From the IMG/VR virus record IMGVR_UViG_3300042375_000481, positions 1 through 24,323 of that record: a stretch of 24,323 nt of DNA, one strand, 5' to 3'. Source of the stretch: a virus. Made by a program: the position numbers and the translations under genes. Shown here in pieces: positions 941 through 4,721 of the stretch (its first letter is position 1; the number at the start of each line of letters is the position of its first letter). A model generated the notes under the pieces. That model was not told where the DNA came from, made no database searches, and saw only the letters and a list, made by a program, of their open reading frames with translations.

Positions 941-1242
941 ATACTTGCTTTAAATAATAAAAATAATGTTTTTGTGATTTTTAAAAATAATATAGGGATT
1001 AACATATTTTTATATTTTAAATTATGAGTAATTTTTTTTAATTTATAAGTAATTATTTTTCAAAAATAGCAAAAAAATCCGTTTAACGGTATGACAATTA
1101 TCATATGAAAAAAAATAAAAACCATTTATCCTATTTTTGTGCATTTCATCGGGTTTTTAACTCATTATGACGAATTAAAAAAAATAAAAAATAAAACTAT
1201 TTCTAAATTTTACGGGAAACCTCATTTTAACAAAATAAATAA
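941..1242. other. AT-rich intergenic region before second regulator
   Basis: About 300 bases of very AT-rich DNA with no convincing gene on either strand. It contains a -7-like TATTTTTG (1132-1139) pointing toward the gene at 1243, without a clear -33 partner, and a short dyad TATGA-CAATTA-TCATA (1090-1105) that could be an operator. No strong hairpin with a T-tract follows the repressor gene. A promoter for the second regulator and integrase is likely here but is not well defined. Confidence 0.35.
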
Positions 1243-1536
1243 ATGACTACGATAGAACGATTAGACGAAAGAATGTTTGAGTTATTCGAGGAACTTAAAC
1301 TAAGAGGGGTAATTAAATATAAAAGGGATTTCGCTAACGCTTGTGGATTGCCTGAGCAAAACTTTTATAACATATCCCAGAAAAGAAACCACTTCAACTT
1401 GATACACGTTGCAAAGATTTGCGAGTTCTACTCTATCAATGCAAATTGGATATTAGAAACTGAAAGTAATCTATTCATTCAAAAAAAAAGTAGTACACAA
1501 ACAGTACACAAAAACACGTTAAAAGAGGCTATTTAA
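1243..1536 (+). CDS. Second HTH regulator next to integrase (97 aa)
   Basis: The protein has the pattern of Bacteroidota phage-type HTH proteins: a helical start (IERLDERMFELFEELK), a helix-turn-helix around residues 26-50 (YKRDFANACGLPEQNFYNIS), and the signature near residues 66-78 (FYSINANWILETESNLF) that resembles the 'Y.iN..Wll.GeG.mf' end of such domains. The last codons (TQTVHKN) are encoded by AGTACACAAA repeats that recur before the integrase, so the C-terminus runs into the putative attP. Likely roles are regulator of integrase or an excision-type factor; which one cannot be told. Confidence 0.65.
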   Translation: MTTIERLDERMFELFEELKLRGVIKYKRDFANACGLPEQNFYNISQKRNHFNLIHVAKICEFYSINANWILETESNLFIQKKSSTQTVHKNTLKEAI

Positions 1537-1683
1537 AAAATGCCACCCCCCGAAAACACTGGGATTAATTTTCAAAAAAAGGCTATCCCCGTTTCCCTCT
1601 TTCTCCGCTTGAATTGGGAAACGCTAATAAACAAAGGCTTTCCCAATTTTTTTTTACCTTTCAATACACAAATAGTACACAAA
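1492..1683. other. Candidate attP with arm-type repeats around a core
   Basis: Four copies of AGTACACAAA (one with A for G) occur as two tandem pairs: 1492-1501 and 1503-1512 on one side, 1663-1672 and 1674-1683 on the other. Each pair is spaced exactly 11 bp, one helical turn. Between them lie inverted repeats built from TTTCCC and GGGAAA (1590-1648). Direct repeats flanking a core next to the integrase gene is the known arrangement of tyrosine-integrase attachment sites. The crossover sequence itself cannot be identified without the host attB. The repeats could alternatively be regulator sites. Confidence 0.5.
1590..1655 (+). terminator. Terminator-like hairpin with an alternative competing stem
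   Basis: AATTGGGAAA (1612-1621) pairs perfectly with TTTCCCAATT (1639-1648), loop 17, and the 3' arm runs into nine Ts (1647-1655), as in an intrinsic terminator. The same GGGAAA segment can instead pair upstream: CGTTTCCC (1590-1597) with GGGAAACG (1616-1623), loop 18. The two stems exclude each other, like a terminator and antiterminator. They lie between the second regulator and the ATG proposed for integrase. They may equally be part of the attP core; both roles can coexist. Confidence 0.5.
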
Positions 1684-3563: not shown

Positions 3564-4721
3564 TTAAAAAATATGTGTAATCCTTGCTATTTGTCCGTTG
3601 TCCTTGCTATGTAAAAATGCTTCTACTGCTTTCGGTGCGTGTTGGTAACCGTTACGATGATGCCAACTATCTGTACCGCTCGGACTTCTTAAACTTTCAA
3701 CCGTAATACCTGCATAATCTTTACTAGTTTTATGATGAACGTGATGAGTATAGATATATCTATGTGTAGTTTCTGCCCAGTACTTACTAAATTCAACCGC
3801 CATTAATAAAGGTAAATCTTGTTGTTTTGCCCCGTCTCCGTGTGTTGTTCCTATTAAATTGTTATGATATTTATATCCTTTTCTATGTGCTATACTACAA
3901 TCGAAAGTTATATTAGTACAGTTTTTAAAATACGTTTCAATTACCTGAGATAAAAAGAAACCGTTTGTGTAATCGTGGTTGCTTGGATTGAAAGTAAAAT
4001 GAACATCGGCAACCGTTAAAAGCATTTCTAATACATCAACATAAAGTTGTTTTGCGATTAAAAAATTAGAGTGCCACATTCCGTCAGTATCTTGTGGTGT
4101 TCCGCTTGTTGTTGTTCTGCTTGGATTGTCGATGTGTAAAATATCGTTTCCCCCGATGAATAATATCTTATCAATATGGAATGAACTAACTTTACTTAAT
4201 ATCCCTCTTACACCCTCTAATACTCTTTGTACTGCTATTTGATTGTTGTACGTTTCGCCACTTTCAAACGAACTGCATAATTTACCAATGTGAATGTCAG
4301 CAGGATCTAAAACAAGCAAATAAGAATCTTTATTTTCTACTCTTTTTAACTCAATAAATTTAGGAGCATAATCTTGTAAATCTGCTATTAAAGTTTCCGT
4401 TAAATCTGAAAATTGTTTTTCTTCTGGTTTGATGAATAACGGATTTGTAACTCTTATACTTTCGTTTTTAGATTTAAGCCATAACATCGGGGTTGTTGAA
4501 GCATCTACACCTAAATTACTACAAGCGTTTGCTACTCCTTGATTATTTCGTACATCACGAACATATTTTCTAAGGCTGTCTAATTCGTAAACATCGCCTT
4601 TAGGGAAAATCTTTCTTGCTACTGACGAATTATTTGAATCTATTAATAAGGATAAAATTTCATTTGTGTAATCACTCCATTTATTTAATTTCATATCAAT
4701 AGGTTTGGTTATATTTCCCAA
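3564..4721 (-). CDS. Metallophosphoesterase with N-terminal HTH-like region (385 aa)
   Basis: Calcineurin-like two-metal phosphoesterase. Motifs in order: D142-x-H144 in LDPADIHIGK, GGND (190-193), N248-H249-D250 in NPSNHD, H294 in TTHGDGAK, and the H-x-H pair 327/329 in YTHHVHH, i.e. all five metal-ligand motifs. The first 70 residues are helical and could be a small HTH-type domain (repeated in phage members of this group). The substrate cannot be read; nucleic-acid or nucleotide hydrolysis is usual for this superfamily. It overlaps the preceding DUF1599-like gene by 26 bases, suggesting coupled translation. Some relatives in Bacteroidota phages occupy the same kind of neighbourhood. Confidence 0.85.
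   Translation of the reverse strand: MGNITKPIDMKLNKWSDYTNEILSLLIDSNNSSVARKIFPKGDVYELDSLRKYVRDVRNNQGVANACSNLGVDASTTPMLWLKSKNESIRVTNPLFIKPEEKQFSDLTETLIADLQDYAPKFIELKRVENKDSYLLVLDPADIHIGKLCSSFESGETYNNQIAVQRVLEGVRGILSKVSSFHIDKILFIGGNDILHIDNPSRTTTSGTPQDTDGMWHSNFLIAKQLYVDVLEMLLTVADVHFTFNPSNHDYTNGFFLSQVIETYFKNCTNITFDCSIAHRKGYKYHNNLIGTTHGDGAKQQDLPLLMAVEFSKYWAETTHRYIYTHHVHHKTSKDYAGITVESLRSPSGTDSWHHRNGYQHAPKAVEAFLHSKDNGQIARITHIF

Follow-up and report, generated by a model that had tools for sequence, protein, structure and literature searches.

What is the role of the repeat-rich segment between a small HTH-type regulator gene and a tyrosine integrase gene in this virus? We addressed this question in the window, i.e. 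the whole stretch of DNA that was analysed, which is a complete IMG/VR virus record of 24,323 bp. A preliminary description had proposed an attachment site with arm-type repeats flanking a core beside the integrase, and had named prophage junctions elsewhere in the phage genome as the observation that would speak against it. We consider it very probable (about 92%) that positions 1492-1683 are the attP of a temperate Flavobacterium-type phage with a tyrosine integrase. The elements of the site and its surroundings are listed in Table 1.

Table 1. Features of the attP region and of the adjoining genes in the window.
Feature	Position	Strand	Sequence and parts	Basis or remark
Candidate Bacteroidetes -7 element	1132-1139	+	TATTTTTG	Consensus match only; before HTH gene
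Small HTH-type regulator gene	1243-1536	+		phrog_9710; weak phrog_8 transcription regulator
P arm, two arm-type repeats	1492-1512	+	AGTACACAAA (1492-1501, 1503-1512)	11-bp phase; overlaps 3' end of HTH gene
attP core, 15 bp	1594-1608	+	TCCCTCTTTCTCCGC, = tRNA-Ser(UGA) 3' end	Junctions in four proviruses; 15-bp overlap of halves
Intrinsic terminator (predicted)	1612-1655	+	AATTGGGAAA (1612-1621) / TTTCCCAATT (1639-1648), T9 (1647-1655)	Fold, compensatory changes
P' arm, two arm-type repeats	1663-1683	+	AATACACAAA (1663-1672), AGTACACAAA (1674-1683)	11-bp phase; ends at integrase ATG
Tyrosine integrase, 383 aa	1684-2835	+		Pfam PF00589, E 5.5e-16; phrog_1 integrase

Nine integrase relatives in viral contigs share a single invariant block between the arms wherever this region is present, which in the window is the core of Table 1. 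A scan of viral contigs with the last 14 bases of the core, combined with tRNA detection, revealed an intact tRNA-Ser(UGA) that ends in the core block and is followed by the hairpin, arm repeats and an integrase homologue (L056, L064, L069, L101 and L128). In genome contigs, a single integrase protein as query gave no match; an alignment query retrieved 18 loci, and this alignment-based scan showed the same order of tRNA-Ser, core, hairpin, arm and integrase in Flavobacterium sp. 1355, F. tiangeerense, F. lotistagni and a Flavobacterium MAG, as well as in Riemerella columbina, where the core carries CCCTCTCTCTCCGC. In every locus with an exact core and an integrase match, the core is invariant and lies 87-152 bp ahead of the integrase. 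The integrase family appears to be rare in sampled genomes, since a search of 397 Flavobacteriaceae genomes with a strict cut-off detected the integrase in the seed genome only.

Both ends of an integrated provirus were present in record G005 and in the genomes G016, G018 and G019 (provirus lengths ~53, 54, 27 and 31 kb, respectively). The left end is composed, in order, of tRNA-Ser, core, hairpin, P' arm and integrase, and the right end of P arm, ~100 bp, core and host DNA. When rejoined, the G016 flanks form a 220-nt empty site with uninterrupted matches (88-94%) in several other Flavobacterium genomes; G016 itself matches this sequence in two halves only, which overlap at query positions 114-128, exactly the 15-bp core. 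The comparison with integrated relatives suggested earlier has now yielded both junctions and their shared core, and these junctions fall on the core between the arm pairs rather than elsewhere in the phage genome, which speaks in favour of the preliminary proposal. The junction evidence comes from relatives with 41-57% identical integrases, in which core and layout are the same as in the window, and neither this phage nor its relatives with 75-98% identity were found in an integrated form. A tRNA search detected neither a tRNA gene nor a host junction in the window, and no tRNA in the attP loci of relatives, as expected for attP. The 15-bp core would recombine with the identical 3' end of the host tRNA-Ser(UGA), and integration would restore the tRNA gene at the integrase end while the host tRNA terminator would move to the far junction.

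The site combines the features of a tRNA-class attP: a core that is identical to a host tRNA 3' end, lysogen junctions on this core in the relatives G005, G016, G018 and G019, and arm-type repeats with one common motif on both sides of the core. The core had originally been associated with TTTCCC/GGGAAA inverted repeats. Such repeats are present (TTTCCC at 1592-1597 and 1639-1644, GGGAAA at 1616-1621), but the core is the tRNA-Ser 3' end, and the inverted repeat belongs to the predicted terminator hairpin. Host DNA does not share the inverted repeat, and the sequence of the repeat changes freely; we therefore rejected it as the core.

In a sister clade, the core GGGTTCGATTCCCGGCGACTCCAC, recognised by eye, reads like the 3' end of tmRNA (ssrA). 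This tmRNA-like core lies ahead of the integrase in L151-L155 and L198, again followed by a hairpin and then an arm pair, and sister clade proviruses are integrated at, or carry, this block. A further locus, L213, is located at tRNA-His.

The repeats on either side of the core, previously described as occurring twice per side, are indeed paired at an 11-bp phase on both sides, although the copy at 1663 deviates from the other three by one mismatch. When 300 genomes with the composition of this one were simulated, none contained four copies (at most one mismatch) on one strand within 190 bp. Chance can be dismissed as the origin of the pairs because relatives have such pairs too, again at an 11-bp phase but with other sequences, and the motifs found across phages include AGTACACAAA, TTACACAAA, TTTTTACACA, GTGAACAAA, GTGTACAAA and others. 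An 11-bp lag peak characterizes both arms and is absent from neighbouring controls, and relatives also carry the P-arm pair ~100 bp ahead of the core, as proviruses do at attR. P and P' are more similar within a phage (16.9/20) than across phages (14.1; permutation p<=1e-5), a p-value that is optimistic as related phages are not independent; still, several distinct motif classes have changed together on both sides. A clear P/P' match is lacking in L025, L148 and L156. Concerted change of this kind would be expected if one protein reads both arms, and the sequence comparisons suggest that this is most likely the integrase, which would bind the P and P' pairs via its N-terminal domain and the core via its other domains.

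The position of the repeats also invites a regulatory explanation, in which they serve as operators of the upstream HTH regulator or as sites of integrase autorepression, and not as arm-type recombination sites. The P' pair abuts the integrase start as previously noted (pair end 1683, ATG 1684), the P pair lies within the 3' end of the HTH gene, and a precedent exists in KplE1 intS, where attL overlaps the autoregulated integrase control region (PMC2951348). However, the distance of each pair from the core is fixed (~100 bp on the upstream side, 44-57 bp on the downstream side), the pairs are present also with a different upstream gene (e.g. in G019 and L014), and the integrase beside them is predicted to have an arm-binding domain; moreover, one pair lands at attR, far from the integrase. 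We therefore regard operators in place of arm sites as very unlikely, while both roles can coexist in the same repeats.

The HTH gene adjoins attP upstream, and the integrated state would put it at the far (attR) end. Immediately ahead of attP, many relatives retain a small HTH-type gene (~84-105 aa, NANWIF motif), the last codons of which contain the P arm; a similar gene also precedes the G016 attR. The gene product might act in repression or as a directionality factor. The sole DNA-level match to cultured phages lies elsewhere in the window, at positions 3564-4721 (- strand): over 750 bp, the sequence is ~77% identical to a gene that is present in Flavobacterium phages such as snusmum and lillamy and that some records annotate as DNA repair exonuclease.

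The hairpin between core and P' arm consists of a G+C-containing stem and a subsequent T-run, the form of an intrinsic terminator. A simple terminator scan missed the 1612-1655 site, the loop of which is longer than the scan permits. The window hairpin has a z of -3.9, and a hairpin was found in the 50 nt after the core in 28/28 non-redundant relatives, with a mean z of -5.0 against dinucleotide shuffles (hairpin controls: mean z -0.35 and -1.7). The hairpin sequences of relatives are of several unrelated kinds. Within the GGGA/TCCC kind, compensatory changes from T-A to C-G and from A-T to G-C have kept the pairing; pairs were counted by anchoring on GGGA/TCCC, as MAFFT offset some hairpins by one base. 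Most copies carry T5-T9, and several relatives have weak T-runs. Empty tRNA-Ser sites possess a hairpin and T-run of their own, e.g. AAAAGCCTTTAAACACTAGTGTTTAAAGGCTTTTT, and at attR a host terminator of this kind follows the right core, displaced by integration, so that in integrated relatives it lies 27-54 kb away. The most straightforward interpretation is a phage-borne replacement tRNA terminator, the activity of which is predicted: hairpin and T-run would substitute for the displaced host terminator, end the tRNA transcript and shield the integrase gene from it.

With a location inside attP and presence in all relatives, the GGGAAA/TTTCCC hairpin could alternatively be a recombination element, either as folded DNA or as core-type integrase sites, and one of its arms also matches the core flank GTTTCCC. 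This contrasts with the wholesale replacement of its sequence between phages (GGGAAG.., AAACCCCTG.., AACTAGC..), which keeps only a hairpin and A/T flanks, with the T5-T9 of most copies, with its location where the displaced host tRNA terminator was, and with attB, which has no such hairpin sequence in common. A recombination element in place of a terminator is thus highly improbable.

A replacement terminator could also be switched by the integration state, an idea that is an addition to the attP explanation and not an alternative to it. In the circle, GTTTCCC (1591-1597) would pair with GGGAAAC (1616-1622) and block the terminator, whereas the tRNA sequence of the lysogen cannot do so. The two elements form a perfect 7-bp complement in the window, with a predicted fold of -12.4 versus -13.1 kcal/mol for the terminator, and a 15-bp sequence at the left end of ICEKp1 relieves the hairpins of its integrase leader (PMC13023037). 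Nevertheless, the equilibrium favours the terminator in both states (probability >0.9 in 11/12 phages tested), and the complement is missing in L004, L039, L195 and G018, which makes such an antiterminator unlikely. It could form in the window, but the fold comparison does not support its conservation across relatives.

A terminator ahead of the integrase raises the question of how this gene is transcribed. TAnnTTTG is the -7 consensus of Bacteroidetes promoters, and its only + strand occurrence between 496 and 2835 is the candidate element before the HTH gene (Table 1). The motif precedes the tRNA gene in 12/12 tRNA-Ser loci examined, one of which (L235) is a tRNA-Ser copy that no phage follows and that has a TAnnTTTG match downstream. 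Between core and integrase, TAnnTTTG was absent in all phages examined, although matches are sparse and their lack within ~100 bp is weak evidence alone. The distance from the T-run to the integrase ATG is only 28 nt in the window. As there is little room and no promoter consensus between terminator and ATG, the integrase is probably read by leak-through transcription, driven by the tRNA promoter in the lysogen and by the upstream HTH operon in the circle. In a long-leader class (L056, L064, L069, L101, L128, L147 and L150), the integrase start codon lies within an inverted repeat, CATTTTAATT...AATTAAAATG; in read-through transcripts, this repeat could mask the start.

The start of the integrase at ATG 1684 is supported by in-frame stops 18-54 nt upstream in L003, L004, L005 and L010, with no alternative start in between; these stops rule out ATG 1540. 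An AlphaFold2 model (pLDDT 85.5) shows an N-terminal domain of three strands and a helix, predicted to be arm-binding, and the protein is accordingly predicted to comprise N-terminal arm-binding, core-binding and catalytic domains. The model aligns with lambda Int 1z1b over residues 7-378 (Z 17.4, rmsd 13.2, 317 aligned) and with the truncated lambda Int 1z19 (Z 17.3, rmsd 4.9, 264 aligned); identity to solved recombinases is low and the catalytic box is unusual. The tyrosine-recombinase residues R222 (ArgI), K249 (Lys), H355 (second His) and Y364 (nucleophilic Tyr) are invariant in set A2. In place of HxxR, which provides the His and ArgII of the catalytic pentad, box II reads YxxK (MYSMKKxG, residues 326-338) throughout the clade (window, L147-L215, L248 and the RAP44 integrase). 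KxxR and YxxR variants in archaea (PMC8371274) and bacterial variants with His replaced by Tyr or a shifted ArgI (PMC8138268) have been described, and a search of the literature, as far as its text was accessible, found no report of YxxK or of an ArgII-to-Lys change. All other features and the fold agree with the tyrosine recombinase superfamily, and we therefore read the YxxK integrase as a variant within it. In L023 (305-1429, - strand; tblastn coordinates), an integrase homologue beside an otherwise intact attP contains one in-frame stop and is possibly broken or mis-assembled.

A promoterless integrase; a portable attP terminator that evolves as an exchangeable module and throttles whichever promoter recombination has put ahead of it, that of tRNA-Ser in the lysogen or of the HTH operon in the circle; an integrase that closes the loop by binding the P' pair at its own start codon; and a clade that works with YxxK instead of HxxR might together form one system, a scheme that we put forward tentatively and hold to be somewhat doubtful.

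In the attP of phage lambda, the core is located between P and P' arm-type sites. The site described here shares this arrangement, and its integrase aligns with lambda Int over residues 7-378, but its core lies in a tRNA gene, each arm has two direct repeats at 11 bp, and a terminator is located inside attP. A close parallel in layout is Riemerella phage RAP44 / 50K genomic island, with a homologous integrase (34% identity) and the same tRNA-Ser core (TCCCTCTCTCTCCGC); the RAP44 integrase was shown experimentally to integrate at a 19-bp TCCCTCTCTCTCCGCAAAA in Riemerella (PMC9745183). The RAP44 record has the same layout, in which a hairpin follows the core and an GTGCACAAA repeat is present on either side, whereas its arm sequence is another one, lacks a clear 11-bp pair of full copies, and accompanies a much diverged integrase; the RAP44 paper does not mention a terminator (PMC9745183). 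Insertion into tRNA-Ser is a trait of RAP44-related prophages, and the proposed Ludisviridae, prophages of Porphyromonas gingivalis, share this insertion and the RAP44 relationship; their hosts are different, and their att anatomy is not described in the accessible text (PMC10367356). Porphyromonas records also match the window integrase. As the RAP44 integrase and att site and the tRNA-Ser insertion of RAP44-related prophages have already been reported, the attP is of a known type; its clear layout is absent from the papers found, and our literature search found no report of the arms or terminator of this att site.

Two further systems bear on integrase control. The work on ICEKp1 and ICEclc describes a tRNA terminator that integration displaces, an integrase that follows the tRNA, attenuating leader hairpins and another promoter after excision; the tRNA-driven integrase, the displaced terminator and the leader hairpins have been tested in ICEKp1 (PMC13023037). 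The present phages are alike in the displaced tRNA terminator, an integrase downstream of the tRNA and a leader hairpin, and of ICEKp1-like switching the terminator displacement is present in relatives. By contrast, those are unrelated elements of Proteobacteria, while the window hairpin has intrinsic-terminator form and occurs in all relatives, here at the level of sequence. KplE1 intS is similar as a tRNA-linked integrase whose start region overlaps integrase sites (PMC2951348), but its promoter overlaps attL, whereas no promoter consensus was found in the window.

For one family of Flavobacterium phages, our results define the exact sequences of attP, attB, attL and attR, which are a starting point for integration vectors in these hosts. 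The natural concerted changes of arm sites and integrase could help to decode arm recognition, and the YxxK variant raises the question of how strictly ArgII is needed. Finally, these phages offer many examples that invaders of tRNA genes can carry a replacement terminator.
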